Below are positions 2,271-23,888 of a DNA stretch of 46,615 bases, piece by piece. The notes under the pieces are model-generated. The model worked only from the letters and a program-made list of their open reading frames with translations. It ran no database searches and was not told where the DNA came from. Where the stretch lies: assembly GCA_022601155.1 (NCBI GenBank), contig JAHZJA010000556.1, forward strand, positions 1 to 46,615. Reading direction: 5' to 3'. The position numbers and the translations under genes are program-made. The stretch is from Deltaproteobacteria bacterium. Lineage in GTDB: Bacteria > Myxococcota_A > Polyangia > Nannocystales > Nannocystaceae. The first letter of the stretch is position 1. Each line of letters begins with the position of its first letter.

Positions 2271-3914
2271 TCACGGCTCGAGCACGGCACGATCCGCATC
2301 CATGAGGCGTGCCTCCACCAGCGCGCGCAGACCCAGATCTTCGTGCAGACGCCTCACCAAGGGTAGGTAGGCGGGCTCCATACGCCGACCGCTTCTGCGG
2401 CGATGGGTCATCCACGGCAACATCACCGCCGCGAGCGGTGAGAGCTCGGGCGGAGGTTCGGCCAGGAATGCCGCAACGTGGTGCTCGAGCACAGGCTCGA
2501 CCCCCTCCGCCTGCTCGAGCACCGCGAGCGCCAGCGGCACGACACCCGAGGGCGTGATGCCCTGGATGTCGTAGTCCCACGTGCTGAGATCGAGCGCCAG
2601 CGCGACCAGTTGCGAGGGCTCGCGGGCCTCGATCAGCGCCCTCACCAGCGCGTCGGGGGCCACGGCCTCTCGCATCGACATCCACCACCACTTCCACACG
2701 GGATGGGTCTTGCTGGCGCCCGCGCCCCCGATCGTCAACGGCTCATCCACAGGCCCCCGTGGTGACACGCCCACATAGCGCGCCGAGAGTCGGCGGACTC
2801 CGCAGCTGTCGAGCATCGGTGGGTGACACCGTCGCTCGAACAACACCCGCAGGACCCTCTGCTGCGCTGCATTCAACTCCTCGAAGACCGTCTCTTCGTC
2901 TCGGTCCCGCAGCTCGGAGAACGCAGCCCTCACCAGCTGTTCGGCAATGTGATCGGGAAGGGGCCAGTCGATCTCGAGGTCTTCGGGGGCCTCGGTCCCC
3001 TCATCGACCTGGGCCACGAAGGCGTCAGTCAAGACATCGCGGACCCGCGTCGGGTCGACACCGTCGACCAGGGTCAGGGCCTCGGCCGCCATCCCCGCCA
3101 GCGCCCCCTGAAACCACGGCAGCTCCCCGGGCGTGGCTCGTGGCCGACGCATTGCCTCCGACAGCACGTCGACCAGCGGCGTGAGTTCGTCGTGGGCCCC
3201 CGTGTATCCGACCGCGATCGCCAGCCCCTCCCGTTCCCAGGCCTCGAGCGTCGAGCCACGCCGCCATGCCTCACGCAACGCCGCCAGCTCGCCCTCGTGA
3301 CCCGTGCGTCGCGCGTGCACACCGATGGCGATCCACGCCGCCGCGCGCACGAAGACGTCCGGAGCCCGGGTACACTCGATCGTCCGCGCCCGAGCGTCGT
3401 CGGTCCACTCGTCGAGGTACGACAGCACGTACAGCGTCGCGGTCGGCCATCGATCGATCCACGGCACGATACGATCGAGTCGCCGCTGGACGGCATCGTG
3501 GGTGGCCTGGGCCAAGGCCACGTAGCGCGAGCGCGAACCATCCTCGCCATGCGGAATCAGCGGCCCAAAGGCGCTGCCCTGAGGCCTCAGCCCCGCCCAG
3601 CCACGTTCGTGGCCCAGCTCCCCCGCGTGCTCGGCCAGGCTGCCCAGCAGGGCGAATGGAACCTCGCCCTGGGCCCCGTCGTCGAGCATGCGCACCAGGA
3701 GCTCGGGGATGTGCTCGGCCACCGGAAACAGCACATCTTGGTGGTAGGACCCCGCACCGATGCTCGCGGCCGCGATGTAGGGATCGTAGTCGTCTTCGTC
3801 GTGGGGAGCCTGCGCCGTCGCCACCAATGTGGAGAGCTCTTCCCTGCTCCCAAACGCCTCCTCGACCAGCGCCTGCGGAAGGGAAGCCACGTACTCGAGT
3901 GGGTGTTTGGACAT
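2271..3914 (-). CDS. HEAT/ARM-like helical repeat protein; candidate immunity or accessory protein for the Rhs effector
   Basis: 547 aa ORF starting 8 bp after the rhs stop; Ala/Leu-rich helical repeats (FVRAAAWIAIGVHARRTGHEGELAALREAWRRGSTLEAWEREGLAIAVGYTGAHDELTPLVDVL). Confidence 0.75.
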   Translation of the reverse strand: MSKHPLEYVASLPQALVEEAFGSREELSTLVATAQAPHDEDDYDPYIAAASIGAGSYHQDVLFPVAEHIPELLVRMLDDGAQGEVPFALLGSLAEHAGELGHERGWAGLRPQGSAFGPLIPHGEDGSRSRYVALAQATHDAVQRRLDRIVPWIDRWPTATLYVLSYLDEWTDDARARTIECTRAPDVFVRAAAWIAIGVHARRTGHEGELAALREAWRRGSTLEAWEREGLAIAVGYTGAHDELTPLVDVLSEAMRRPRATPGELPWFQGALAGMAAEALTLVDGVDPTRVRDVLTDAFVAQVDEGTEAPEDLEIDWPLPDHIAEQLVRAAFSELRDRDEETVFEELNAAQQRVLRVLFERRCHPPMLDSCGVRRLSARYVGVSPRGPVDEPLTIGGAGASKTHPVWKWWWMSMREAVAPDALVRALIEAREPSQLVALALDLSTWDYDIQGITPSGVVPLALAVLEQAEGVEPVLEHHVAAFLAEPPPELSPLAAVMLPWMTHRRRSGRRMEPAYLPLVRRLHEDLGLRALVEARLMDADRAVLEP

Positions 3915-3921
3915 CGTGGCT

Positions 3922-6900
3922 TCACTTGCAAGGGGTGACCTTGCCGTTGACGGTGAGCTTACCTTTGTCCCACTTCCACAGCTTGTCCTTCTTCCAGTAC
4001 TCCACGGTGGAACTGTGCTTCTTGGAGAACTTCTTCATGGCGTTTTGGCAGTCGGGGCAGGGATTGAGGGGCCCACCACCCACGATCTTCCCGTTGGGTG
4101 CCTTGAACACCCCTCCCTCGGACTTCACCTTCAAGGTGGAGCCCTTGAGCTTGCCGTTGGTGGCAGGGTTGGCCTCGAGCTGCTTGATGAGCTTCTGCTC
4201 GCTGTCCCCCGTGCGGCCCGGAATCGTCTTGGCCTTGGGGTCACTGTAAAACGCCTTACCCCCCCGCGGGCCCGTGACCGGCTCGGTGTTACCCGCAGCA
4301 TCGGTCAACGTCGCCGTCACCTTGTGGAGGCCGAGCGGATCGGTGGCGACCAATGGGTTGAAGACGTACCCGTACAGGTGCCCATCGCCCTCCAGCTCGA
4401 GCGGGTCGGCACTGATATAGCCGCCACCATGTGGATCGTAGTAGCGATAGCGATTGTAGTACAGACCCGTCTCCTGGTCGTGATACTGGCCGAAGAATCG
4501 AAACGGGCACCGATGGATCTGCTCGCTGCCATCGAGCCACTGCCCGCGCAGCCCCAGCCGAGCTCGCCACACCTCCACGCCCGCCGCGTCTAGCATCGCC
4601 TCGGGGGTGCCGATGTGATCGGTGATGACGCTCAGCGCCGCGCGCTCTTCCAGCTGCACTAACAACGCCGCACGGTGGGGTTCGTGGACCCACGAGCGCA
4701 GGTTGCCGGGCTCCCCCTTGGGCTCCCCCTCGGCCGCGACCTCCGTCCACTCGTGGATCGGCAGGTCGCCGTCCCACAGCCAGCGCGTGCGTACGTCACC
4801 GCAGGTCTTGCTCACCCGACGCCCACCCGCATCGTACTCGAAGGTGATCTCGGTGCCATCGGGCCGACACACCTGCACGAGTTCGCCGCGGTCGCTCCAC
4901 GTGTAGCGCCAGCGCGCGCCCCCACCGTGCTCACGGGACACGAGGTTGCCGCGCGCGTCGTATTCGTAGCGCCACCCGTCGTAGGCCACCAGCGCTCCGG
5001 CCGGGTCGTGTCGTCGCGGCCCGCCTGGCCCCGACTCGATCAAGTTCCCCACCACATCCACCACGTGCGGCTGGTAGCTTCCGTCGGGTTCGTGGACCCC
5101 ATGGAGACGGTCGACCTCGTCGTAGGCAAACCGACGCTCGCCGTGAGCCCCGTCGGTGAGACTCAGCAAGCGCAACCCCTTGCCCCACGTGTAGCGCTTG
5201 GCGTGCACGGCCTCATCCGCGCAGCGAACCTCGTGGGACAGCGGACGCTGGAACGCGTCGAACGTGCGCACACCGATCACCGAGCCCGGCAGGCGCGCGG
5301 TCTCGGATAGATCCTGGCCATGGGTGAACTCGGCGGCCCACACCGCCTCGCCCTCAAGCTCCACCTTCACGTGGCGCGGCAGGCTCCTGTCGTTCCAAGC
5401 GATCGACTGCTTCAGACCCAGGCTGGTCTCCACCTCGACCCGGCGCCCATCGGCGTCATATCGCGAGCGAACCCAGTGCTCGCCTTGCGATTGCTCCACC
5501 ACCCGGCCGACCAGATCGTATTCGAACGCAGTGCGGCAGGAGCCGCGTGTCGCCGCGACGATGTCGCCGCCGGGCGCGTACTCGAACGACAGTGCAGTCC
5601 CGTCGTCGTAGTCCGCGCGAGTCATCCGCCCGAACGGATCGTAGGCCCACTTCGATCGTCGGCCGTCTTCGTGCTCGATGCTGTCGACCCGTTGCGCCGC
5701 GTCGAACGCATAGCGACGGCGGTTGCCGCGGAAGTCGATGACCTCGTGCGGCAGGTTGTTGTCGTCGAAGCGCCACCGGTGTCGCTGCCCATGCTCGTTG
5801 CGGATCTCGAGAGGATTGCCCTCGGAGTCGTACTCGAACGAGGCACGGCTCCCCGCCTGCTGCCGAGTCCTCATCAGCTGATGGTTCGAGAAACCGAAGT
5901 CGATCGCGGTGTGCGAGTCGTGAGCGCCCACCAAGTTGCCCTCGGCGTCGTAGGTGTACCGTCGCTGCATCCCGGTGTCGTCTTCGGCGGCGGTCATCTG
6001 CCCCAACAGATCGTGTCTGAACCGCTCCACGCTGCCGTGCCTCCCATGGGTGGAGGTGGCCCGGCCCAGCACGTCGAACTGGTGCTCGATTGCGGTCCCG
6101 TCCGAGAACTCCATGACCTCGACCAGTCCAACTGCGCCGTATCGCATCGTCACCTGCACGCCACCGGGAAGCACGACCGCGGCCAGCCCGTGGGGGCCCC
6201 ATACGTTGCGGGAGATGCTGCCGTCGGCGGCGTGGGTCTCGACCAGTCGCCGGTCGTCGTCGTAGCAGAACATCGATCGTGCTCCGCGGTGGTCGACCAC
6301 ACTCACCAGCTGGTCGGCGTCGTTGTACTCGTAGTGATAGGTGGCGCCGTCGGTCAGCCGCACCATCGTCTCTCGACCACGGTCGTCGCGGGTATGGGTC
6401 GCGACGTTCCCCAGCGGATCGACCGTCCGCAGCAACCTCCCGTCGTCATCGTACTCGGTCACGGTGACGTTGCCCCGAGGGTCGGCCTCCTTCTCCACCA
6501 GGCCCAGCTCGTTCCAGTGGTAGCAGCGCGTGTTTCCTCGGGAGTCTTCCACCCATGTCACTCCGGCATCGAGGTCGTAGCGAAGGGTACGGGCCAGGTA
6601 CCCCCCGTCGCCCCACGTTCGCGTGCAGCGTGACTTGGGCCCCCCGGTCCCGTCCCACTCGAAGTGGAAGGAGTAGCCGTTGCGGTCCTGGTCTCGAGTC
6701 ATCAGGTGATCGCGGTACTGAAACCGCGTGCTCCCCCCCAGCGCGTCGGTCACCGCAACGAGGTCACCGGCCTCCGAGTATTGGTAGGAAACCAGGCGCA
6801 CCTGCTCCGCGGGGCGCTCGGGATCGGGCCCGTACACGCCAACGACTCGGCCCTGTGCGTCGTGCCGCAGCCGGATCCGGTGCCCATTGCTCGACTCCAC

Positions 6901-8028
6901 GGCCACCACTCGTCCCCGCTCGGACACGAACTCGAGCCAACGACCCTGGACGTCGCGGATCGTCGTCAGCCGATGGAAGACCACCCCCAGCGGTCCCGAC
7001 GACCCGGCACCAAACACGAACGTGCGCCCGTCACCACCGCGGTCTTCGAGCCGATAGCGACGATCGGCCCCGACCTTCAGCACCAACATCTCGGCGTCGT
7101 TGCGACACGGCTGGCCGGGCGATGGCCGCTCGAACCCCACCAGCCGCCCGTCGTCCATGCGAACCACGAGCAGCTCGCCCGAGTCCATCACCGCCATGTC
7201 GTAGCTATGGTGCCAGCCATGGCCCAGCGGCCCCACGTAGGTCGACGTGCTGTACCAGACCCGCTCGAGGCGAAACGGCAGCGGCCAGTCGACGTGGATG
7301 TCGACGGCGTCGGTGAAGACCTTGCCCGTCGCGATGTCGACCGGGTGTCCGGTCACCGCACAGATCGCGCGCTTCATCTTGTTGCGCGCGTTGTCACCGA
7401 GCTTGAGCGCATCGGCCAGCTTGTCGGCCCCCTTGCGCGCCTTGGCCGAGATCGCCTTGGCGGCGCGACCGATCGCGCCGTCCCCCTTGGCGAGCCCCTT
7501 GAGCTTCTTGAACGCACCACCCAGCCCCGCCATCACGCCCCTCATCGCCAGCGCCGACAGCGAGATCGTGGGGCCCCCTCCCACGTTGACGGGCGGGCCC
7601 ATGGGAACCGCGAGCACGACCGAAGTCGGCAGACACAACGACTTGGGCGGTGATCCCTTGGCTCGCGGCGGAGCCGGGATCCCGATGTCGCTGCAGCTGA
7701 GCGCGGGCAGCCCCAAGCGGCTCTGCGCATCGCCGTCCGCGGCGACGGTGGAGCTGCCCATGAACACCTCGAACTCGTTCGACGGGGGCTTGACGAAGAT
7801 TCCCCCGATCGGGATGTGCGGAGGAATCATCACCCCGGCCGTGCCCGCCTGGGCTCGCGGCACGCCGTTGACGTTGACGGTCGCGCCGATCCACGGCGCG
7901 TAGTCGGCCGGATCGAGCAGCATGCCGATCGCGGGGTGCGGCACGGGGATCGGCGGAACGGGCCCCGGCGGCTGAATCATGTGGATGTCGATGCCGAGGA
8001 CGGGATCGAAGTGCTTGGCGCCGATCAT
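3922..8028 (-). CDS. PAAR-Rhs polymorphic toxin (T6SS cargo) with C-terminal deaminase-like tip
   Basis: N-terminal PAAR-like/DUF4150 region, VTGHPVDIATGKVFTDAVDI (DUF6531-like), many YD repeats, core end FGQYHDQETGLYYNRYRYYDPHGGGYISADPLELEGDGHLYGYVFNPLVATDPLGL, then a 134-aa variable tip. Confidence 0.95.
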   Translation of the reverse strand: MIGAKHFDPVLGIDIHMIQPPGPVPPIPVPHPAIGMLLDPADYAPWIGATVNVNGVPRAQAGTAGVMIPPHIPIGGIFVKPPSNEFEVFMGSSTVAADGDAQSRLGLPALSCSDIGIPAPPRAKGSPPKSLCLPTSVVLAVPMGPPVNVGGGPTISLSALAMRGVMAGLGGAFKKLKGLAKGDGAIGRAAKAISAKARKGADKLADALKLGDNARNKMKRAICAVTGHPVDIATGKVFTDAVDIHVDWPLPFRLERVWYSTSTYVGPLGHGWHHSYDMAVMDSGELLVVRMDDGRLVGFERPSPGQPCRNDAEMLVLKVGADRRYRLEDRGGDGRTFVFGAGSSGPLGVVFHRLTTIRDVQGRWLEFVSERGRVVAVESSNGHRIRLRHDAQGRVVGVYGPDPERPAEQVRLVSYQYSEAGDLVAVTDALGGSTRFQYRDHLMTRDQDRNGYSFHFEWDGTGGPKSRCTRTWGDGGYLARTLRYDLDAGVTWVEDSRGNTRCYHWNELGLVEKEADPRGNVTVTEYDDDGRLLRTVDPLGNVATHTRDDRGRETMVRLTDGATYHYEYNDADQLVSVVDHRGARSMFCYDDDRRLVETHAADGSISRNVWGPHGLAAVVLPGGVQVTMRYGAVGLVEVMEFSDGTAIEHQFDVLGRATSTHGRHGSVERFRHDLLGQMTAAEDDTGMQRRYTYDAEGNLVGAHDSHTAIDFGFSNHQLMRTRQQAGSRASFEYDSEGNPLEIRNEHGQRHRWRFDDNNLPHEVIDFRGNRRRYAFDAAQRVDSIEHEDGRRSKWAYDPFGRMTRADYDDGTALSFEYAPGGDIVAATRGSCRTAFEYDLVGRVVEQSQGEHWVRSRYDADGRRVEVETSLGLKQSIAWNDRSLPRHVKVELEGEAVWAAEFTHGQDLSETARLPGSVIGVRTFDAFQRPLSHEVRCADEAVHAKRYTWGKGLRLLSLTDGAHGERRFAYDEVDRLHGVHEPDGSYQPHVVDVVGNLIESGPGGPRRHDPAGALVAYDGWRYEYDARGNLVSREHGGGARWRYTWSDRGELVQVCRPDGTEITFEYDAGGRRVSKTCGDVRTRWLWDGDLPIHEWTEVAAEGEPKGEPGNLRSWVHEPHRAALLVQLEERAALSVITDHIGTPEAMLDAAGVEVWRARLGLRGQWLDGSEQIHRCPFRFFGQYHDQETGLYYNRYRYYDPHGGGYISADPLELEGDGHLYGYVFNPLVATDPLGLHKVTATLTDAAGNTEPVTGPRGGKAFYSDPKAKTIPGRTGDSEQKLIKQLEANPATNGKLKGSTLKVKSEGGVFKAPNGKIVGGGPLNPCPDCQNAMKKFSKKHSSTVEYWKKDKLWKWDKGKLTVNGKVTPCK

Positions 8029-8034
8029 GGTGCC

Positions 8035-10350
8035 CTAGTTGAGGTTGATGGCCCCGCCCGCCACATTGACCGCTCCCGAGCCCGTGACGTTGACGGTCGG
8101 CGCGACCACTTCGACCGTTCCCTTGCCCATGAGCTTGGCCGTGGCGCCCAGGATCTCGGCGTTGGCGGTCAGCTTGACCGCGCCGCCCGAGCGGGACTGG
8201 CAGGTGGTCGTGGCCCCCGTGATCGTCGCGTTCGCGTCGTAGAACCCCGAGCCCCCGCCGGATGCCTTGACCAGAGCGTTGGCGTCCAGCAACACCTTGC
8301 TTCCCCCGCTCGATTGCGTCAGCGCGTTGCCGTCCAGCAGCACCTTGCTCCCGGCCACGCTCTTCATGCAGGCATTGCCATCCAGCAGCACCGAGCTGCC
8401 CGCGTTGCTCTTCATCAGCGCATTGCCATCGAGGACGATCTTCGCCCCGCCCCCGGCCTGGAGGGTGATCTTGCCCGGCTCGAGCGTGATCGACGATCCC
8501 GGACACGACAGCGTGATCGAGCTGGGTGCACTCATGAACACGGTGCTGCTGGCGGTGACCTTGTAGTCGCCCGTGACGTCGGTGGAGCTGCCCGTGAACC
8601 CACCACCACCACCACCACCACCACCACCACCACCACCAGCCGCCCCCGAGCCGGTCTCCTGGGCGGGCGACCCCTTGACGGTGATGGTCTGGTTGCCGTC
8701 GATGGTGACGGTCTGATTGCCGCCGACGCCGAGGCTCTGGTGCAGGTCGATCGAGGTGTCCTCGTTGTGGAGCACCTTGACGTTGAGGTCCTTCTGCGCG
8801 TGGATGTAGATCTCCTCGGCCCCCGAGGCGTCCTCGAACCGCAGCTCGTTGTAGCCATCACCGCCGGGCGTACTGTTGGACTTGAGCGTGCTCTTGGTCT
8901 TGTCGTCGGGGAGGGCGTAGGGCGGGGGATGGCGCCCGTTGTAGACACAGCCGGTCACCACGGGGCGATCGGGGTTGCCCTCGAGGAACTCCACCAGCAC
9001 CTCCATGTCGATCCGCGGGATGAACATCGAGCCCCAGCCCGGCCCCGCCCACGTCTGCGCCACACGAACCCAGCACGAGCACGTGTCGTCGCGTGAGCCC
9101 AGCCGATCCCAGTGCATGAACACCTTGATCCGGCCCAGGTCGTCGGTGTGGATCTCCTCGCCCGAGGGCCCGGTGACGGTGGCGGTTTGGGGCCCCTCGA
9201 TCTTGGGACGCGCGGTACGACGCGGTGGACGGAAGACGACGTCGTAGGGGACGCACTCGAACGAGTTCTCGTACTGGGCCCCACCTCCGCTCGCGCCCAG
9301 CTCCTCGGAGGGACAGTCGCCCCGATGGATCACGCGGGTGATCAGGTACTGCTGGTTGAAGTCGTCGCGACCGTGGTCGAACAGATCGAGGGTGCAGCCC
9401 GCCAGCAGCCCCGTCACGTTGCTGCGACCGCGCCCGACCCGACCGCCCAGCTGGTGCCGCTGTTGCTCGCGCAGCGCGAGGTCCTCTCCGTCATCGATGA
9501 CGAAGCGCCGCGTGGTGTGCTGATAGCCTTCGCGGTCGAAGCCACGGTCGTCGGCCCCGGCCGCGGCGTGCATGATGGGATCGGCGGGCTGCAGCAGGTC
9601 GAAGTCCATGCGCGCGATCGAGGTGGTGTGGACCCGCCGCCGCCATTCGAACGACTGTATCGACTCCACGTCGGCGTTGTGTGGCTTGTCGACGATGATC
9701 GGGACGTCGGTCACCCCATCGAGGGTCACGATCTCGGGATAGGCGTCGTTGCCATCGACGAGCACCAACACCTCGTGGTCCTCGTCGCCCGCGTTGTCGA
9801 AGCGGTACGCGATCCCTTCTTCTTCCATCAAGCGTGACGCGAACGACAGATCGGACTCGCGGTACTGCACGCAGTAGTCCCGCGGATCGTAGGTCCCCGA
9901 CAGCTCCACGCGAATGGTGCGGCCGTGCTGTGACAGCCGCGGCTCGAGGACCGCCTGCAGGATCTCGGGGACGGACATGTCTTGGAAGATCCGCGAGTCC
10001 ACCGACAGCGAGCACAGCCACAGCGCAGGAACGATCACCACGCGGACGTGCAGGCGGTCGGCGACCACCCCCAACCAGTCCAGCTGACACACCACGCCGT
10101 AGATGCTGCGGTGCAGCGGATCGCGCTCGATGCCCAGTTCACACGAAGCCCCCAGCAGCGCATCGGCATCGACGTCGAGGTCGTCGGTGATGAGCTCGAG
10201 CTCCAGGGTGTAGGGCACCGACAGCTGCTCGGTCAGCTGCACCCGGCGCACGTGCCAGTCGGCATCGGGACCATCGCTGGTCGTGAAGCCGTACCGAACC
10301 TTGGGCATCAAACCGCCGGGCAAACCGCCGGACGTGGTGGCATCGGACAT
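8035..10350 (-). CDS. vgrG: VgrG/Tssi-type T6SS spike protein with repetitive C-terminal extension
   Basis: VgrG hallmarks (YCVQYRESDLSFASRLMEEEGIAYRF; WAGPGWGSMFIPRIDMEVLVEFLEGNPDRPVVTGCVYNGRHPPPYALPDDKTKSTLKSNSTPGGDGYNELRFEDASGAEEIYIHAQKDLNVKV). Likely start MSDATTSG at 10350, not the upstream ORF start at 10515. Confidence 0.95.
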   Translation of the reverse strand: MSDATTSGGLPGGLMPKVRYGFTTSDGPDADWHVRRVQLTEQLSVPYTLELELITDDLDVDADALLGASCELGIERDPLHRSIYGVVCQLDWLGVVADRLHVRVVIVPALWLCSLSVDSRIFQDMSVPEILQAVLEPRLSQHGRTIRVELSGTYDPRDYCVQYRESDLSFASRLMEEEGIAYRFDNAGDEDHEVLVLVDGNDAYPEIVTLDGVTDVPIIVDKPHNADVESIQSFEWRRRVHTTSIARMDFDLLQPADPIMHAAAGADDRGFDREGYQHTTRRFVIDDGEDLALREQQRHQLGGRVGRGRSNVTGLLAGCTLDLFDHGRDDFNQQYLITRVIHRGDCPSEELGASGGGAQYENSFECVPYDVVFRPPRRTARPKIEGPQTATVTGPSGEEIHTDDLGRIKVFMHWDRLGSRDDTCSCWVRVAQTWAGPGWGSMFIPRIDMEVLVEFLEGNPDRPVVTGCVYNGRHPPPYALPDDKTKSTLKSNSTPGGDGYNELRFEDASGAEEIYIHAQKDLNVKVLHNEDTSIDLHQSLGVGGNQTVTIDGNQTITVKGSPAQETGSGAAGGGGGGGGGGGGGFTGSSTDVTGDYKVTASSTVFMSAPSSITLSCPGSSITLEPGKITLQAGGGAKIVLDGNALMKSNAGSSVLLDGNACMKSVAGSKVLLDGNALTQSSGGSKVLLDANALVKASGGGSGFYDANATITGATTTCQSRSGGAVKLTANAEILGATAKLMGKGTVEVVAPTVNVTGSGAVNVAGGAINLN
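8600..8638. repeat. CAC/GGT trinucleotide microsatellite encoding a poly-Gly linker in VgrG
   Basis: Uninterrupted (cac)n tract of about 38 nt; encodes ~13 consecutive Gly. Confidence 0.95.
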
Positions 10351-10591
10351 GACAGGGGGGCAGACCGCGCGAAAAGGAGGAGGGAGAGGGCGTCGCCGGC
10401 GCAGATCTGCATGTTGATGGAGGTAGGCCGCACATGGATGTGACAGGCGCAAATGTCGCGGTTCGCAGTTCCGCGCAGATCGTGCCCGCACAGGCCGATC
10501 AGAGCCCGACCGCAAGCCGACACCACCACGCGGAGTGCGACCGCTGACCCATTGCGCCGCGGCAGCGGCCGCGTGCTAGGTTCCGCGCGCA

Positions 10592-11521
10592 GTGGCGAAC
10601 CACACCCGGTTTCGGCGCTTTTCGTGGGCGTTCCTCGTCTACCTGTTGTTGGTGATCTTGTTCGGCGCGTGGGTTCGCATCACCCACTCGGGGGCGGGCT
10701 GCGGCTCGCATTGGCCCACGTGCCACGGGCAGATCATTCCGCTGGCGCCGTCGATCGAGACCGTCATCGAGTACACCCATCGGCTCACCAGCGGCATGCT
10801 GGGCATCGTCGGCTTGGTGTTGCTGGGCTGGGCCGCGATCCGTTTCGGCCGCCATCGGGTCACCGCGGCGGCAGCGGTCACCCTGGTGTTCATCGTGTTC
10901 GAGGCGGCCATCGGCGCAGGCCTCGTACTCAAGGAGTTGGTGGCCAACGACGACTCGGTCGCGCGTGCGGTGGTGATCGGTGTGCACCTGGTCAACACGC
11001 TGCTGCTGACGGGCGCCGCGTCGCTCGCCGCATGGTGGAGCCGCGAGGAGACCGAGCCGGCCAAGCCCCTACGCGGCGCGGCACCCTGGCTGCTGGCTAC
11101 GGCCCTGCTCGCGCTGATCGCCAGCTGCATGACCGGGGCGGTCACCGCATTGGGCGACACCCTGTTCCCGGTCGACCCCACCGCAGGCGCGGGGCTGTTC
11201 GATCGCGTGCGCGACGATCTGTCGTCGGCCAAGCACTTCCTCGTGCGGCTGCGGATCATTCACCCCGTCGTCGCCGTGGTTGCAGCGGGCGTCGTCTATG
11301 GCGTGGGGGCCTGGGTTCGTGAGCACGCCACCGACGACCGCACGCGTCGACTGGCGCGCGCGATGCAGCACGGCGTACTGGCCCAGGTGGTGCTCGGGAT
11401 CCTCAACATCGGCCTGGCCGCCCCGGGGTGGATGCAGCTGCTGCACCTGCTCCTGGCACAAGTGGTGTGGATCGCGGTGGTGTTGACCGCCGCATCGTGC
11501 CGCGGCTCCACCAGCGCCTGA
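10592..11521 (+). CDS. ctaA: Heme A synthase, COX15/CtaA family
   Basis: Multi-TM protein with GAWVRITHSGAGCGSHWPTCHGQIIP, EYTHRLTSG, GVHLVNTLLLTGA, GAVTALGDTLFP: typical CtaA/COX15 motifs with conserved His. Confidence 0.93.
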   Translation: MANHTRFRRFSWAFLVYLLLVILFGAWVRITHSGAGCGSHWPTCHGQIIPLAPSIETVIEYTHRLTSGMLGIVGLVLLGWAAIRFGRHRVTAAAAVTLVFIVFEAAIGAGLVLKELVANDDSVARAVVIGVHLVNTLLLTGAASLAAWWSREETEPAKPLRGAAPWLLATALLALIASCMTGAVTALGDTLFPVDPTAGAGLFDRVRDDLSSAKHFLVRLRIIHPVVAVVAAGVVYGVGAWVREHATDDRTRRLARAMQHGVLAQVVLGILNIGLAAPGWMQLLHLLLAQVVWIAVVLTAASCRGSTSA

Positions 11522-12271: not shown

Positions 12272-15136
12272 ATGAACTCCAAGCACGACGACCTGCCGAC
12301 CCGCGACCTGTCGGCCTTTGCGATCCCCAGGTCCGGGAGCCACGACGACACGGATCGCTCGGGCGTGGATGCGCCCGACATCCAGATGGACGTGGTCTGG
12401 GCCCGGCTCAACGCGTCGATGGGTCAGCAAGAGCCGGACGACATGGCCCGGGTCGGTCGGTTCGTGATCGTCGACACCATCGGCCGAGGCGCCATGGGGG
12501 TGGTCTACCGCGCCTACGATCCGCAGCTCGATCGCCGCGTGGCGCTCAAGTTCGTGGAGCACGGCGGGGGTACGACCGCCGATAGCCGAAGCACGGCGGA
12601 GATCGAGCGCGAGGCCCGAGCGGCGGCCGACCTCGCCCACCCCAACATCGTGACCGTCTACGACGTGGGGATGCACGGCGACCGGATGTTCCTGGCCATG
12701 GAGCTGGTGGAGGGCTCGTCGTTGCGACACTGGTTGCAGCGCCCGGGCCAGACATGGCGCGCGGTGACCACGATGTTCGCGGCGGCAGCCCGGGGCTTGG
12801 CCGCAGCCCACAGCCACGGGATCGTCCACCGTGACTTCAAGCCCGACAACGTGTTGGTGGGCGCAGACGACCGTCCTCGTGTGGCCGACTTTGGTCTGGC
12901 CCGCCCCATCGAGGGCTGGACGGCGCGGGAGATCGCGCGCGAGGGGGCCAGCGACGACCGGGCGCTCACCGACTCCAACGGCTCCACGCCCTCGACGGTT
13001 ACAACGGTGTGCGGAACGCCAGCCTATATGTCACCCGAGCAGTTCGAGGGGGGCCAGGTGGGCCCGGCCGCCGATCAGTTCGCCTTTTGCGTCAGCCTAT
13101 ACGAGGGCCTGTGGGGCCAGCGCCCATTCGCAGGCAAGGGCGTGCAGGCGCTGGCCGCCGCGGTGCTCGACGAGCGACCGCGGCCTCCACCGTCGGGACA
13201 TCGCGTGCCGCGACGGCTGTACGAAGCGGTGCTCCGCGGTCTGTCCCGCGACCCGGAGGCCCGCTTCGACTCCATGGAGACGCTGGCCGACACGCTGGAC
13301 GACATCCTCGCCGCCCGCGGACGTCGGCGGGTCCGCGGCGGCATGGCTGCAGTCGGCATCATCGCGGTGGCAGCCGGCGTGGGCATGTCGTCGCTGGCAG
13401 CCGAGCGCCCCTGCGAGTCGGCCCAGACGTTGCTCGGAGCCACCTGGAACGACACCCGCCGTGCAGACATCGTGGCCGTCCATCCCGGTGCCGCCGCCCT
13501 CACCCAACACCTGGACGACTACGCGCAGCAGTGGATCGACCGCCGCGATGCCACCTGCGAGCGCACGCGGGTGCTCGGCCAGCAATCAGAGCTGGCCATG
13601 CAGCTCCAGGTCGCGTGCCTCGAGCGTGCACAGGTTCGGCTGGAAGGCGTGGTGTCGACCCTCGCCGAGCCCGTCGGACCCAACGCCACTGCGACGGCCC
13701 TCGTGGTGGACGACATCGTGCTCCCGCTTTCGTCGTGCGATGACGTGGAGGCCCTCGAGCGTGCGCCCGATCGACTGACCTCCCGGTCCGCCTTCGACTC
13801 CGAGGCCCAGCGCGCCCTGTTCCTCGAGCTCGACGAGACCCTCGGTCGCGTGCGGGTGCGTCATCGGCTGGGACACGACGTGAACCCGCAGCTCACCGAC
13901 GTGATCGCACGGGCGCGTGAGCACGGGCTGGCCCACGCGCAGGCCGAGGCCGAGCTGGTGCGCGGACGAATCGCCCACGAGCGTGGCGACTTGCCCGTCG
14001 CCGAGGATGCCTACGCCCAAGCCGTGCAGCTGGGGTTGGCGACGCGGTGGGATCGGCTCGCCGAGCTGGCGGTGGCCGAGCGCGTGCAGCTGTTGCTCGA
14101 CACGGGCCGGGTCGCACGTGCGAGCGAGCTGCTGGGAGTGCTGACCGGGATCGCGTCTCGCGAGCACCGCCCGGGGCAAGACCGCGAGCCGCAGTGGTTG
14201 GTCACCAGCCTGCAAGGCAGCGTAGCCCTGGCCCGCGGCGACGCACAGACGGCGGAGACCATGCTGCGCAAGGCACAGGAGCAGGCACGAGCCGAAGGCG
14301 AGTCGTCGACCTCGGAGGTGGGGCTCGAGCTGGCCAACAATCTCGCCAACGCCTACCAAGCCCGCAGCAAGTACGCCGAGGCTGCCGCCGAGTACGAACG
14401 GATCGTCGCGGCACTGGAGGCGCGGGGCGAAGCCGACAGCTACACCGCCGCTGCCGCGCATGCCAACCTCGCCATGGCTGCGACCAACCTTCGCGACTAC
14501 CCGCGGGCTGCCCCTCACTACGCGCGCGCGCTGGAGTTGGTCCGGGCGATCACCGACCAGCCTCACCCCATCGCCCAGTCGGTGCTCGGCAATTGGGGCT
14601 GGATGGAGCGAGAGCAGGGGCAGTACGCCGAGGCGCTGCAGCATCAGCATCAGGCCCTCACGATGGCGCGGTCGCTGTTTGGACCCGAGCACCCCACCCT
14701 CGGCTACGCCCTCGACGAGCTAGGGGAGCTGGCGTTGGCACAACAGCAGTGGAACACCGCCGCCGAACGCTTTGGTCGCGCGCTGTCGCTGCGGGAGCAG
14801 GGCCTGGGCAGCACGCACCCGGGGCTGGCCACGAGCCTCATCGGCTTGGGCGAGATCGCGCTGGCTCGGGGTCGGAACACCGAGGCGATACCGCTGCTGG
14901 AGCGAGCCTCGACCCTGCTGGGCGATCCACCGAGCGATGCGATCACGGCGGCGCGGGCACGACTGGGGCTTGCCCGTGCCCTCGCCCCCACCCGGCCCGA
15001 ACGTGCCCGACAGGCGGCGGCAGCTGCGAGGGCGCTGGTCGACCCAACGCACCCACTGTCCGGTCCCATCGCATCGTTGCTCGAGCGGCTGCCCGGCCCC
15101 GAGACTTCCGCTGCGGGCGGGACCCCTCCGCCGTAG
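12272..15136 (+). CDS. Serine/threonine protein kinase with C-terminal TPR array
   Basis: IGRGAMGVVYRAYDPQLDRRVALKF, HRDFKPDNVLV, DFGLA, GTPAYMSPEQF; TM (GMAAVGIIAVAAGVGMSSLAA) followed by TPRs. Confidence 0.95.
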   Translation: MNSKHDDLPTRDLSAFAIPRSGSHDDTDRSGVDAPDIQMDVVWARLNASMGQQEPDDMARVGRFVIVDTIGRGAMGVVYRAYDPQLDRRVALKFVEHGGGTTADSRSTAEIEREARAAADLAHPNIVTVYDVGMHGDRMFLAMELVEGSSLRHWLQRPGQTWRAVTTMFAAAARGLAAAHSHGIVHRDFKPDNVLVGADDRPRVADFGLARPIEGWTAREIAREGASDDRALTDSNGSTPSTVTTVCGTPAYMSPEQFEGGQVGPAADQFAFCVSLYEGLWGQRPFAGKGVQALAAAVLDERPRPPPSGHRVPRRLYEAVLRGLSRDPEARFDSMETLADTLDDILAARGRRRVRGGMAAVGIIAVAAGVGMSSLAAERPCESAQTLLGATWNDTRRADIVAVHPGAAALTQHLDDYAQQWIDRRDATCERTRVLGQQSELAMQLQVACLERAQVRLEGVVSTLAEPVGPNATATALVVDDIVLPLSSCDDVEALERAPDRLTSRSAFDSEAQRALFLELDETLGRVRVRHRLGHDVNPQLTDVIARAREHGLAHAQAEAELVRGRIAHERGDLPVAEDAYAQAVQLGLATRWDRLAELAVAERVQLLLDTGRVARASELLGVLTGIASREHRPGQDREPQWLVTSLQGSVALARGDAQTAETMLRKAQEQARAEGESSTSEVGLELANNLANAYQARSKYAEAAAEYERIVAALEARGEADSYTAAAAHANLAMAATNLRDYPRAAPHYARALELVRAITDQPHPIAQSVLGNWGWMEREQGQYAEALQHQHQALTMARSLFGPEHPTLGYALDELGELALAQQQWNTAAERFGRALSLREQGLGSTHPGLATSLIGLGEIALARGRNTEAIPLLERASTLLGDPPSDAITAARARLGLARALAPTRPERARQAAAAARALVDPTHPLSGPIASLLERLPGPETSAAGGTPPP

Positions 15137-15259
15137 TTCGGGCACCCGCAGCCCCCCGCCCGGTTCGCGGAATCCGACGCCGAGCCCTCCGGGTTATCGT
15201 CGCCTACGCTCGTGGAAGACGTGGGGCAACAGCGTGACGAGCAGGAGACTCGGACCGCC

Positions 15260-18200
15260 ATGGTCCTCGACACCACGCCGTCGTCGTCGCGGCAGGGGCC
15301 CGGGGGCGAGGCCGCCATCGCAGGCGCCAAGCAGGTCGGGCACTTTCAAGTGCTGCGCCAGGTCGGTGAGGGCGGCATGGGACAGGTCTACGCCGCCTAC
15401 GACCCCAAGCTGGATCGCCGCGTCGCGCTGAAGCTCCTCAACGTACGCGACGACGAGCGCGACGACCTTCGCCTGGTTCGTGAAGCGCAAGCACTCGCCA
15501 AGCTCGCCCACCCCAATGTGGTGTCGGTCCACGACGTGGGTGCCCACGGCAAGCAGCTGTTCGTCGCGATGGAGTTCGTCGACGGCGTCACCCTGCGCCA
15601 GTGGGCCAAGACCCACCCTCCCGACGATCGAAAGCGGCAGGTCGAGGCGCTGGACTTGCTGCTCCAAGCAGGCCAAGGCCTACGCGCTGCGCATGCGGTG
15701 GGCCTGGTGCACCGCGATTTCAAGCCGAGCAACGTGCTGGTCGGCGAGGATGGGCGCGTCCGCGTGGTGGACTTTGGGCTGGCCCGGGCCCAACCCACAC
15801 CCGCAACACGATCCAGGGCGGCCGCCGAGCGAGCCGCACCCGACAAGGTCTCGGCCGCGAGCCACGAGATCGTCGGCGCGGCCGGCCTCGACCTCTCGGG
15901 CAGTGGCTCGGTCACCCAGACGGGTCGACTCACGGGGACGCCCGCCTATATGGCTCCCGAGCGATTCCTCGGCGAAGCCGCCGACGCGGCCAGCGATCAG
16001 TTCGCGTTTTGTGTCACCGCGTGGGAGGTGCTGCTGGGAGTTCGCCCCTTTGCCTTCGAGGGCCCAAACCCCTATCTGCGCCAGATCCGTCGCGGAACCC
16101 TGCGGCGACCACCTCAGCTCGAGGTCTCCCCCGAGCTCGAGGCCGCGCTCCGCAAGGGGCTCGCGTTCAACCCCAGCCGCAGGCACGCCAGCATGGAGGT
16201 CATCCTCCAGCGCCTGAGCGAGATTCGAGACGGGCTCGGTGGAGCAACCGCCGTGCGACCTCGTTCGCGGCGAATCTGGGCCGCGTCGTTGTCCTTGGTC
16301 GCGGTGGCATCGACCGTTGCCTTCGTCGCTGGCCGGGCCGACTCGGCCGCATGCACTGGCGCGCAACAGCAGCTGTCGGGGACATGGGACCCGCAGGCGC
16401 GCGCGCGCCTCGAGCAGGCGTTTGGTGCGGTAGAGGCTGGGTTCGGGGCCGACGCCTGGGCTCGATTCGAACAACGCCTCGACACGCATGCCCGCGAGTG
16501 GGCCGCAGCACACCGCGACGCATGCGAGGCCGCACAGGTTCGAAAGGAGCAGTCGACCGAGCTGATGGATCTGCGGATGGCCTGTCTCGAGTCGCGGCGG
16601 GTGCAGCTGAGCGCGCTCACCGAGATCTACGCCACGCCAGATCTCGAGATGCTGGCACGAACCGAGCAAGCCCTGGACGGGCTGGACTCGATCGACCGCT
16701 GTGCCGACCCCCAGTACGTCCGCAACCGCGGTCGCCAGCCCACCGACCCTGCCGAGATCACCCAAGCCGCCAAGCTCGAGCGCACGCTGGCCACCGCCGC
16801 CGCCCTCCTCGACACGGGGCGAGCGGACGAGGCCCTGCACATCGCCAATGCGGCGGTGGCCGACAGTGCATCACTCGGGCTGATCCGACTGACGGCGAAG
16901 GCCTACCTCATCCGTGGCGCCACCTACCAGTCGATACGCCAGACCGAAGACGCCCGCGACGATCTCGAGCACGCCTACCTGCTGGCCAAGGACGGCGGAG
17001 ACGACGAGGTCGCCCTTGGCAGTGCACGGCGGCTGCTGATGGTCTCCGGCACGATGCGCGGGCAACAAGAGGAAGGCCGCTGGTGGGAACGCGTCGCCCA
17101 GGCCGAGGTGGAGCGCTCGGGCGACCCCCTGGAGGCGATCCGCCTGCTGCTCGATCAGGGCATGTTCGAGGCTCAAGCGTCCAACCAGGCCAAGGCCATC
17201 GACTACTACGAGCGGGCGGTCGCGCGGCTGCTGGAGCTGGGCGACGACGAGTCCACCACCTATGCCCGCGCGACCCGACTGCTGGGAGGCAGGCTCGTCA
17301 ACGGCGGGGACTTCCAGCGGGCGCTCCCGCTGCTGCGCGAAGCCCAGGCCCTGTACGAACGCACGCTGGGCCCCCGGCACCCCGTGCTCATCAACGTGCT
17401 GTCGAGCATCGGTGCCGTGCATCGACTCGCGGGCAAGCCGCAGCTGGCGCGGGCCACGATCGACGAGGCACTGACCCTCGCCACGCAGACGTTCGGCCCC
17501 AACCACGTGTTGTTGACCAACCCTCTGCTGCAGCTGGTGAAGCTGCATGACGACCCCAAGCAGACCGACGAGGCCATCGCGTTGGTGCAGAAGGTCCGGG
17601 CGCTCCACGTCCCCGCGCCGCAGTCCGACCCGGTCGTCATCACGACGTTGGTGATCGAGGCCGAGTTCCAGGCACAGCGCGCGCGGTCCGATGAAGCCGA
17701 GTCAGCCTATCGGCAGGCCCTGGCGTTGAGCATCGCCGCACTTGGCCCGCTTCACCCCAAGACGGGCCAGCTCCGCGTCTCGCTGGGCTCTACGCTCGCC
17801 GCCCTCGGCCGTCGAACCGAGGCCATCGGCCATATCGAAGCCGGCCTGGCCTTGGGCGAAGATGCCCTGGGTCAGGCCGAGTCGCTGGCCACCGTGCTCG
17901 ACTCCGTGGCGCACTCGTTCGAGGAGGCCGGTGATCTTCCGACCGCGCTCGAGTTCGTACGACGCGGGATCACCTTGGCCGAGCGCACGCTGGGCGCCGA
18001 CGACTACCGCGTCGCCGCGCTCCACTACAACTGCTGCAGCATTCTGCGCAAGGCCGGACGGACCGAGGAAGCCTTGGTCCACTGTCGCCGCGCAGACGAG
18101 CTGACCAAGGACCAGCCCGGGTACCAGCGCGAGCGGGTCTACATTCTCAACGGTACCGGCTCGGTACTGATGGAGGCCGGGCGACTGGACGAAGCACTGG

Positions 18201-18667
18201 CGCTGTACCAACGCGCCCGCAAAGCGGCGATCGAGCATCTCGAGCCGGGCAGTCTGTCGTTGGCCTTGATCACGGCCAACATCGCGGAGATCCACGCCCT
18301 GCGCGGTCGGCCGAACGAGGCCTTGTCGCTGTACACGCTGTCGCTCGAGTATCGCGAGCAACGGTTCGATGCGGCCCACCCCATCCTCGCCGTTCCGCTG
18401 CTGGGCATGGCACACGCCCTCATCGATCTGGGACGGGCCGAACGAGCGCTGCCGCTGGCGAAGCGGGCGATGACGCTGACCGATCCTCCCCGTGGCACGC
18501 CGCTGGAGCACGCGCGCGCTCAGGTCGCACACGCGCGCGCCGAGACTGCCCGCCCGGGACGACGCCGATCGACCGCGGCCCTGCTAGCGCAGGCACGCGA
18601 GACCTTCGCGCAGCATCCCGACCAGGCGCGCCTCGACCTCGAGCGGCTCGAGGCCTGGGGCCTGTGA
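15260..18667 (+). CDS. Serine/threonine protein kinase with C-terminal TPR array
   Basis: VGEGGMGQVYAAYDPKLDRRVALKLL, HRDFKPSNVLV, DFGLARA, GTPAYMAPERF; TM then long TPR region. GTG start at 15212 also possible. Confidence 0.95.
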   Translation: MVLDTTPSSSRQGPGGEAAIAGAKQVGHFQVLRQVGEGGMGQVYAAYDPKLDRRVALKLLNVRDDERDDLRLVREAQALAKLAHPNVVSVHDVGAHGKQLFVAMEFVDGVTLRQWAKTHPPDDRKRQVEALDLLLQAGQGLRAAHAVGLVHRDFKPSNVLVGEDGRVRVVDFGLARAQPTPATRSRAAAERAAPDKVSAASHEIVGAAGLDLSGSGSVTQTGRLTGTPAYMAPERFLGEAADAASDQFAFCVTAWEVLLGVRPFAFEGPNPYLRQIRRGTLRRPPQLEVSPELEAALRKGLAFNPSRRHASMEVILQRLSEIRDGLGGATAVRPRSRRIWAASLSLVAVASTVAFVAGRADSAACTGAQQQLSGTWDPQARARLEQAFGAVEAGFGADAWARFEQRLDTHAREWAAAHRDACEAAQVRKEQSTELMDLRMACLESRRVQLSALTEIYATPDLEMLARTEQALDGLDSIDRCADPQYVRNRGRQPTDPAEITQAAKLERTLATAAALLDTGRADEALHIANAAVADSASLGLIRLTAKAYLIRGATYQSIRQTEDARDDLEHAYLLAKDGGDDEVALGSARRLLMVSGTMRGQQEEGRWWERVAQAEVERSGDPLEAIRLLLDQGMFEAQASNQAKAIDYYERAVARLLELGDDESTTYARATRLLGGRLVNGGDFQRALPLLREAQALYERTLGPRHPVLINVLSSIGAVHRLAGKPQLARATIDEALTLATQTFGPNHVLLTNPLLQLVKLHDDPKQTDEAIALVQKVRALHVPAPQSDPVVITTLVIEAEFQAQRARSDEAESAYRQALALSIAALGPLHPKTGQLRVSLGSTLAALGRRTEAIGHIEAGLALGEDALGQAESLATVLDSVAHSFEEAGDLPTALEFVRRGITLAERTLGADDYRVAALHYNCCSILRKAGRTEEALVHCRRADELTKDQPGYQRERVYILNGTGSVLMEAGRLDEALALYQRARKAAIEHLEPGSLSLALITANIAEIHALRGRPNEALSLYTLSLEYREQRFDAAHPILAVPLLGMAHALIDLGRAERALPLAKRAMTLTDPPRGTPLEHARAQVAHARAETARPGRRRSTAALLAQARETFAQHPDQARLDLERLEAWGL

Positions 18668-21470: not shown

Positions 21471-23888
21471 GTGAGCGACGAACAACCGCTCGACCCTTTG
21501 GCGGGCACGCCCTTGCCGAGCCAACACGCCGAGGTCGGTGTGGAGACCCGGCGATTGCAGCAGGCGATCGCCACGAGCTTGTTCGGCGACGCGGCACCGG
21601 CCGACCCCGTGCAGATCGGCCGCTTCGCCATCACCGAGCGACTGGGCTCTGGCGGCATGGGCGTGGTCTATCTGGCCCACGACCCTCGGCTCGAGCGGCC
21701 GGTTGCGCTCAAGGTGATGCGCAAGGACCTGCAGCACGCCGCGCGCGACCGCATGGTCCGCGAAGGCCGTTCGCTCGCTCGCCTCGATCACCCCAACGTC
21801 GTCCCCGTCTACGACGTCGGCTTCGTCGACGGCCGGGTGTTCGTCGCGATGGGCTATGTGCGCGGGCAGACCCTGCGCGAGTGGATGGCGGCCAACCCTT
21901 GTCGCAGCCGCCGCAACGTCGACGACACGGTGGCCCTGTTTCAGCGCGCCGGAGCGGGCCTGGCCCATGCCCACACCGAGGGCATGGTGCATCGCGACTT
22001 CAAGCCCGACAACGCGCTGGTGGGCGAAGACGATGCCGTGCGCGTGGTCGACTTCGGGCTCGCCGCCCCCGCTCCGGGCCCAAGCGACCCCACCGGGGTG
22101 GGCCTCACGCTCGACAGTCGTCAACAGACCCTGCCCGGCAACGAGTCCGAGCTGTCGGAGTCGCGGCTGACCGGCGACGGCGAGGTGGTCGGCACCCCCG
22201 CGTACATGTCTCCCGAGCAGCTGCTGGCGCAGCCCGCCGATCACCGCAGCGATCAGTACTCCTTTTGCGTGGCGCTGTACGAGGCCCTGCATGGCGAGCG
22301 CCCGTTCGGCGGCAAGACCATGCTCGCGCTTCGCAACCAGGTGCTCATCGGCGACAGGCCCTCCACCCCCAATGCCGTCGTGCCGCGGTGGATCAACGAC
22401 GCCGTGCTGCGCGGCCTGAGCCGGGAGCCGGCCGAGCGCTTCGAGAGCATGGACGCCCTGCTCCAGTGCCTCGCCGACGACCCCGCCGTACGCCAGCGTC
22501 GACGCGTGACCCGGGTCGCCGCCTTCGTGGGCGTGGTTGGTGTTGCCGGGTTCGCCTACGCCCAGGGGCGCCGTGAAGAGGCGATCGAGCCGTGCCCCAT
22601 CGTCGAGGACGCGTCGGTCGGTGGTTGGGACGAGCCGGGGCGCACCGCCGTCCGCGAGACCCTGCTGCAGGGCGACGCCCCCTATCGTGAGCAGACGTGG
22701 GCCACGGTCGAGACCAACCTCGACGAGTACGCGCGCCAGTGGACCGCCATGCAGCACGACAACTGCCTCGCCACCCGCGTCCGGGTCGAGCAGAGCGAGC
22801 AGCTGTTCGACATGCGCCAGGGCTGCCTCGCCGACCGCGAGCGGTCGCTGCGAGCGGTCGTCGAGGTGCTCGGCTCGGGCAATCCCGATGTCGTGCTGCG
22901 GGCCGCCACCGTCTCTCAGGGTCTGCCTTCGCTCTCCGTTTGCGCGTGGTCGCCCGCGTTCGTGAGCCCCGCCCCCATTCCCCAGGACCCGGAGCTCGCC
23001 GAGCAGGTGGAGCAGGTGCGGGAGCGCTTGGCCCGGGCCGAGGCCACCGGTCGAGCCGGGCTCTACACCGCGGGGCTCGAGCAGGCCCGCGCCGTCGCCA
23101 CCGATGCCGCCTCGATCGACTTCGATCCGCTCCGTGTCGAGATCGAAGAGAGGATCGCCACCGCCGAGTACCGTCTTGGTCAGTACGATGCAGCCGAGAG
23201 CCGACTCGACGACGTGTTTTGGCTGGCGCTGTCGGCCAAGCACGACCGTGTGCTCGCAGCGGTCGCCGTGCACCGCGTCGACGTGAGCGTGCAGCGAGCG
23301 GACGGTGACCAGAGCGACGAGTGGGAACGTCGCGCGCGCGCAGCCCTGGCTCGCATCGGTGGGGACACCATGCTCGAGGCCGCCCTCGAAGGTGCACTGG
23401 GCCAGCGCGCCAACGACGAGTCGCGGACGGCCGATGCCATCGAGCACAAGCGCAAGGCCGTGGAGCTGTCACGGCAAGCCGAGAGCCCCGACCCAGGCTT
23501 CACCGCCGACCTGCTGTCGTCCTACGCATCCACGATGATGCGCCAGGGCCAGATCGACGAGTCGATCCCGATCTACCGTGAAGCCATCGACCTGCTCGAC
23601 GGCATCGTCGGCCCCCATCACCCGTCCTTGGCCTCGGTCCACAACAACCTCGGCATTGCCCTGCTGACCAACGGCGACCCCGAGGCCGCGCTCGAGCAGC
23701 TGCTGACCGCGCTCGAAGTCTATCGCGAGGTCTATCCCAAGGGGCACATCGAGCTGGCCAACACCCTCGCCGTGTTGGGCTATATCCACAACGACCGTGG
23801 CCACCTCGACGAGGCCGCCACCTTCCTGCTCGAAGCACTCGCGATGTTCCGCGAGGTCATGGGGCCCGATCATCCAAAGGTCGGCTAG
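21471..23888 (+). CDS. Serine/threonine protein kinase with TPRs, truncated by in-frame TAG
   Basis: LGSGGMGVVYLAHDPRLERPVALKVM, HRDFKPDNALV, DFGLAAP, GTPAYMSPEQL; ends ...GPDHPKVG*, with homologous TPR sequence continuing in the same frame. Confidence 0.92.
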   Translation: MSDEQPLDPLAGTPLPSQHAEVGVETRRLQQAIATSLFGDAAPADPVQIGRFAITERLGSGGMGVVYLAHDPRLERPVALKVMRKDLQHAARDRMVREGRSLARLDHPNVVPVYDVGFVDGRVFVAMGYVRGQTLREWMAANPCRSRRNVDDTVALFQRAGAGLAHAHTEGMVHRDFKPDNALVGEDDAVRVVDFGLAAPAPGPSDPTGVGLTLDSRQQTLPGNESELSESRLTGDGEVVGTPAYMSPEQLLAQPADHRSDQYSFCVALYEALHGERPFGGKTMLALRNQVLIGDRPSTPNAVVPRWINDAVLRGLSREPAERFESMDALLQCLADDPAVRQRRRVTRVAAFVGVVGVAGFAYAQGRREEAIEPCPIVEDASVGGWDEPGRTAVRETLLQGDAPYREQTWATVETNLDEYARQWTAMQHDNCLATRVRVEQSEQLFDMRQGCLADRERSLRAVVEVLGSGNPDVVLRAATVSQGLPSLSVCAWSPAFVSPAPIPQDPELAEQVEQVRERLARAEATGRAGLYTAGLEQARAVATDAASIDFDPLRVEIEERIATAEYRLGQYDAAESRLDDVFWLALSAKHDRVLAAVAVHRVDVSVQRADGDQSDEWERRARAALARIGGDTMLEAALEGALGQRANDESRTADAIEHKRKAVELSRQAESPDPGFTADLLSSYASTMMRQGQIDESIPIYREAIDLLDGIVGPHHPSLASVHNNLGIALLTNGDPEAALEQLLTALEVYREVYPKGHIELANTLAVLGYIHNDRGHLDEAATFLLEALAMFREVMGPDHPKVG

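Follow-up and report, generated by a model that had tools for sequence, protein, structure and literature searches.

A BaDTF3/DddB-related deaminase-like Rhs toxin tip with aspartate in its first motif, and its large HEAT-like downstream partner, in a Nannocystaceae bacterium

Organization of the vgrG-rhs locus

The window, that is, the whole 46,615-nucleotide stretch of DNA analyzed here, carries on its minus strand a head-to-tail array of vgrG, rhs and a 547-aa ORF, separated by gaps of 6 bp and 7 bp. Its features are given below in the order of transcription, with the basis of each call in parentheses; residue numbers are those of the 137-aa construct P0001 (LGL plus tip).

8035-10515, minus strand: vgrG, encoding a T6SS spike protein, upstream of rhs (Pfam Phage_GPD 229 bits, Gp5_trimer_C 85, Phage_base_V 56, Gp5_C 22)
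3922-8028, minus strand: rhs, 1368 aa, with N-terminal region, Rhs/YD shell, DPLGL and toxin tip (Pfam and NCBIfam)
4327-4341, minus strand: DPLGL, core/tip boundary and expected autocleavage site (sequence)
3925-4326, minus strand: predicted deaminase toxin tip, 134 aa, after DPLGL, with the stop codon beyond (AF2 models, Foldseek, PDB profile search)
4198-4206, minus strand: DSE, predicted first active-site motif, residues 44-46 (E invariant in 17/17 aligned tips)
4078-4125, minus strand: 16-residue insertion between the third strand and PCxxC (alignment; present only in the window tip among 17)
4048-4062, minus strand: PCPDC, predicted second active-site motif, residues 92-96, its two Cys being predicted zinc ligands (P, C and C invariant in 17/17)
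2271-3914, minus strand: acidic HEAT-like protein, 547 aa, probable immunity protein, 7-bp gap to rhs (partner profile, conserved position)

The rhs product matches Pfam RHS_repeat (191 bits) and DUF6531 (68 bits) and NCBIfam Rhs_assc_core (69 bits), and its core ends in NPLVATDPLGL. Autocleavage at DPLGL-type sites is established for T6SS Rhs proteins. The locus has what is expected of a T6SS Rhs polymorphic toxin: an Rhs shell, a VgrG in the same operon, the DPLGL boundary, a downstream partner gene and a T6SS in the genome (three TssC/VipB genes). A first-pass annotation of this DNA had read the coordinates, the 134-aa tip after DPLGL, DSE, PCPDC, their approximate spacing and the xxMxxF downstream correctly from the sequence; it had missed the conserved large partner gene downstream.

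A gene for a COX15/CtaA cytochrome oxidase assembly protein (10592-11518, plus strand) is divergent from the vgrG operon. Also on the plus strand are genes for three large proteins combining a Ser/Thr protein kinase with tetratricopeptide repeats (12272-15133, 15212-18664 and 21471-23885) and for a 652-aa protein with five FG-GAP_2 repeats (29912-31867).

Sequence and composition of the tip

The tip reads HKVTATLTD...GRTGDSEQKLIKQLE...GPLNPCPDCQNAMKKFSKKHSSTVEYW... The D of DSE is the predicted zinc ligand, in the place of His, and the E the predicted proton shuttle; the first C comes 47 residues after this E, and AMKKF follows PCPDC. The strict pattern [HCD]xE-x(15-60)-PCxxC occurs only in the tip among the six-frame ORFs of >=60 aa in the window, and arose in 51 of 200,000 shuffles of the tip.

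The tip is basic (pI 9.9) and rich in lysine, with 24 Lys among the 137 residues of P0001 (17.5%) versus none in the three DTE tips described below. Its GC content is 0.609 versus 0.676 for the core. The first-pass annotation had taken the high lysine and low GC, both of which are real, as signs of a swapped cassette. That last step fails because third-position GC equals that of the core (0.869 versus 0.853) and codon usage does not look foreign; the low GC therefore reflects amino-acid content, namely the 24 lysines, and is no evidence of a recent swap.

Predicted fold and family

Pfam searches with the tip gave three sub-threshold matches, all to deaminase families and all at the PCxxC helix: Pput2613-deam (PF14427; 18 bits, cut-off 25), Toxin-deaminase (PF14424, the BURPS668_1122 family; 14.9 bits, cut-off 29.6) and APOBEC4 (11.9 bits). 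A single-sequence AF2 model (pLDDT 63) showed the strand and helix order expected for the C-terminal-hairpin division. In a Foldseek search of the PDB its top match was 9k3e, the DddB/BaDTF3 dsDNA deaminase (E 1.7e-4, probability 1.00), which was the sole match with E < 0.001; DYW, APOBEC1, APOBEC3H and SsdA were among the lower ones. A model built from the 17-sequence alignment (pLDDT 83.6, pTM 0.77) again gave DddB as the top match (E 3e-5, probability 1.00, TM 0.62 on target length). In this second model DSE opens a helix at 45-55 and PCPDC a helix at 94-107, the strands and the C-terminal hairpin are present, and the 16-residue insertion forms extra short strands. The [HCD]xE and CxxC motifs thus lie at the N-termini of two helices, as in the deaminase superfamily.

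Profile searches led to the same family. A 15-row profile of myxobacterial tips, from which canonical BaDTF3 was left out, matched four BaDTF3 chains (E 1e-10 to 2e-11) and nothing else in the whole set of PDB sequences. The first residues of the BaDTF3 chain 9pw1, MHKATVTVTDKNG, align to the start of the tip, LHKVTATLTDAAG, in a block that is colinear with, and separate from, the PCxxC block. The window tip scored 33.5 bits when compared with a profile built from its 14 relatives; 2000 shuffles, half of which preserved the PCPDC block, reached 20.2 at most.

Further likenesses to BaDTF3/DddB/Pput_2613-like proteins (PF14427; PDB 9k3e, 9pw0-9pw2) are the location at the tip of an Rhs/YD-repeat protein, the N-terminal HKxTxTxTD strand, xxE followed by GxxxPCPxCxxAM, the predicted fold, and a TD-to-motif-1 distance of 32 residues in the tip versus 33 in BaDTF3. 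BaDTF3 differs in having H rather than D in motif 1, a distance of 24 rather than 47 residues from E to Cys, and Imm10 rather than a HEAT-like partner; the window tip, taken alone, also falls below the Pfam cut-off.

Since both the fold match and the PDB profile matches point to BaDTF3, we assign the tip to the Pput_2613-like/BaDTF3 family (PF14427). The deaminase fold proposed in the first-pass annotation is upheld by the AF2 topology, the top PDB match to DddB/BaDTF3 and the profile match at E ~2e-11; its suggestion of a DddA (SCP1.201)- or BURPS668_1122-like family is not. That the tip is a zinc-dependent nucleic-acid deaminase is supported by structure prediction, by fold and profile searches and by relatives with invariant E and CxxC, and it is very probably a DNA cytosine-deaminase toxin of the DddB/BaDTF3 kind, in an unusual sub-branch.

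Relatives of the tip and the DxE clade

Direct searches with the tip alone yielded nothing convincing in genome contigs, viral contigs, plasmids and phages; weak tblastn matches in other Myxococcota (L002-L005) were antisense or low-complexity. PF14427 had no match over 284 genomes at E 0.001, an uninformative negative, since the controls were silent too and later profiles found members in the class. Combining the tip with a BaDTF3 chain sequence in a two-row profile brought up L015 (144 bits against PF14427) and L016, both canonical BaDTF3 Rhs tips of other Polyangia, and a profile of the tip with these two found further Rhs ORFs in the class, mostly of ~1300 aa. A fragment at a contig end (L017/L030) and two apparent chance matches (L018 and L032) were discarded. 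Because these relatives were first reached by a profile containing a BaDTF3 chain, their similarity to BaDTF3 is partly search-dependent; the single-sequence fold search does not depend on that profile.

The 17-row alignment has E46, G88, P92, C93, C96 and Y113 invariant. At the first ligand position, 12 rows have H, four have D and one (L023) has C. PF14427 matches 17/17 of the aligned tips at E 0.01 or better and PF14424 matches 3/17. Most of the close relatives score above the PF14427 cut-off, among them L029 (35.2 bits), L035 (29.9), L022 (38.5) and L034 (38.7); L036 (24.7) and L033 (18.2) stay below 25 bits.

In place of the HxE of BaDTF3/Pput_2613-like proteins, the four D rows have DSE (window tip) or DTE (L029, L035 and L036); all are Rhs tips from Polyangia. 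The first-pass annotation was thus right that DSE replaces HxE, but the change is not private to this tip. In the tree the four DxE tips form one group (93/93), which is kept when the ligand column is masked (91/92); this is moderate evidence because the tree has 60 columns and the window tip sits on a long branch. They have three stretches in common as well: H-x-x-x-A-T at the start, R-[TF]-[GS]-D-[TS]-E, and, behind the PCxxC helix, [CS]-T-[VI]-x-Y. When one genome per species was scanned with two DTE tips, only the loci of those two came up, in a Polyangiaceae MAG and in Sorangium cellulosum So0008-312, which suggests, given the strict peptide patterns used, that such tips are rare.

Asp at the first ligand position of toxin deaminases was already noted in 2012 by Zhang et al., who describe the first motif as [HCD]xE in toxin deaminases and as 'H, occasionally D' in the sce3516-like clade of Sorangium (PMC3482391). 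What is new here is the DxE clade, along with its linkage to a large HEAT-like downstream gene. We found no DxE toxin deaminase with measured activity in the literature searched.

The HEAT-like downstream partner

Of 14 related loci, eight have a 517-633-aa ORF whose start lies -3 to +65 bp from the rhs end; two of the eight (L038 and L043) are 92% identical. Against a profile of these eight partners, built without it, the 547-aa ORF of the window scored 37 bits, and the best of 1000 shuffles ~6. The second partner profile excluded a 405-aa ORF behind L042 that seemed to be antisense noise. The partners have in common the blocks LPWF, R-[YW]-[VI]-G-[VL]-x-P-x-G-P and P-[VL]-W, and seven of the nine aligned members match HEAT_2. 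The window partner is acidic (pI 4.9, charge about -33).

Among the partner loci of 18 genomes, the nine strongest all adjoin these deaminase tips; the weaker homologues examined elsewhere have no Rhs gene directly upstream. Homologues away from Rhs genes were seen at L081 and L082 (G585) and at other loci; these could be orphan immunity genes or serve some other function. The HEAT-like partner is present for 3/4 DxE tips, and it is missing or different at the related loci L039, L042, L046 and L050. The canonical L015 and L016, from the same phylum, have Imm10 (69-71 bits) adjoining the tip downstream, the place taken in the window by the HEAT-like gene.

Immunity is the likeliest role of the partner because of its position at tip ends, its acidity against a basic tip, and the HEAT-type immunity proteins described for other toxins (PMC3482391, PMC13392607). 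Imm-HEAT proteins and Tdi5a share with it all-helical HEAT-like repeats and a place adjoining polymorphic toxins; they differ in that the toxins they are listed with are Tox-REase-7, Ntox34 and a nuclease toxin rather than deaminases (PMC3482391, PMC13392607), and the 517-633-aa length sets the present partners apart from them. A loading chaperone or adaptor, or an unrelated neighbor, is a possible but unlikely identity. It would accord with a size unusually large for an immunity protein, with the homologues away from Rhs genes and with the several related tips that lack the gene, but not so readily with a gene that lies directly behind the toxin end in nine loci, as immunity genes do, and that occupies the position of Imm10 in same-phylum canonical BaDTF3 loci. 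The 547-aa partner is probably an immunity protein, and the family a probable immunity family. Such partners would add a large type of deaminase immunity protein, none of this type being listed for deaminases in the literature surveyed.

Discussion

The architecture, operon order, predicted fold, BaDTF3 homology, DxE clade and conserved partner are best explained by a T6SS-delivered Rhs toxin with a BaDTF3/DddB-related deaminase tip, likely acting on DNA cytosine, and a HEAT-like immunity protein; we consider this reading likely. The Rhs shell would bring the tip to the T6SS spike, and such delivery is plausible because vgrG is in the operon and the genome has three TssC/VipB genes. Cleavage at DPLGL would, by analogy with other Rhs effectors, release the 134-aa tip. 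Judging from the alignment and the predicted fold, zinc would be held by D44, C93 and C96, and E46 would shuttle the proton. Most likely, cytosine in the recipient's DNA would then be deaminated, resulting in killing or mutation; we infer this substrate because the closest relatives act so, a BaDTF3 member being toxic in E. coli and introducing C-to-T changes in E. coli DNA (PMC7901873). The 547-aa acidic protein would serve as cytosolic immunity protein for the tip. Counting against this explanation are the sub-cut-off PF14427 score, the Asp ligand, the 16-aa insertion, the loci where the partner is absent or different and the partner homologues away from Rhs genes.

A deaminase-fold toxin might instead act on RNA, a free nucleotide or adenine. 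The second-best fold matches, DYW RNA editors and APOBECs, would fit such a substrate, as would the highly basic character of the tip, its changed ligand and the insertion near the active site; with DddB, a dsDNA cytosine deaminase, as the closest solved homologue by both profile and fold, we think it unlikely.

Membership of the tip in a different toxin-deaminase family, either BURPS668_1122 (PF14424) or sce3516-like, is similarly unlikely. Besides the weak match of the tip itself to PF14424 at the PCxxC helix, there are weak PF14424 matches for its DxE relatives L029 (21.1 bits) and L036 (19.8 bits; cut-off 29.6), but all tips tested are below the cut-off and 14/17 have no match at E 0.01, whereas every aligned tip matches PF14427, the top-scoring family for each of the tips listed. 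The sce3516-like Tox-Deaminase clade, prototyped in Sorangium, resembles the tip in its C-terminal-hairpin division, its first motif (H, occasionally D, xE), CxxC and an association with Rhs and T6SS, and differs in its listed immunity, SUKH rather than a HEAT-like partner (Zhang et al. 2012, PMC3482391). The PDB profile matches are to BaDTF3 structures only; the DxE clade, likened to the sce3516-like clade by description only, may overlap with it.

A bolder and rather doubtful proposal is that the DxE clade is a functionally distinct lineage in which an Asp-ligated zinc alters chemistry or substrate (the base, the sequence context or the strand form attacked might differ, for example), countered by an undescribed family of large HEAT-repeat immunity proteins. 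A degenerate, catalytically dead tip, in which D is unable to replace the usual His at the zinc site, would suit the long branch and the insertion, but is very improbable given the intact ORF, an Asp common to four clade members of different genera, all with E and both Cys retained, the HEAT-like partner in three of those four, and the documented [HCD]xE of toxin deaminases (PMC3482391).

The window tip is thus best regarded as a DxE variant of known BaDTF3/DddB-like toxins, and what makes it interesting is its DxE clade together with the large HEAT-like partner. Enzymes for DNA editing and footprinting are drawn from BaDTF3/DddB and related toxin deaminases. With Glu and Cys kept and His replaced by Asp, the clade raises the questions of whether Asp supports the zinc chemistry of toxin deaminases and whether it shifts substrate preference.

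Other genes at related loci

Different genes were seen behind some related tips. At L035/L046 (G585), the gene overlapping the rhs end of a DTE tip (-3 bp) encodes 195 aa, much shorter than the HEAT-like partner. At L023 and L039 (G577), where the Rhs tip has CGE as its first motif, the product of the gene that overlaps the tip end by 3 bp is leucine-rich-repeat-like (225 aa) and is a candidate immunity protein of the LRR type. At L048, a second Rhs ORF (1190 aa, same strand) lies beyond the HEAT-like partner, ~2350 bp behind the first rhs end.
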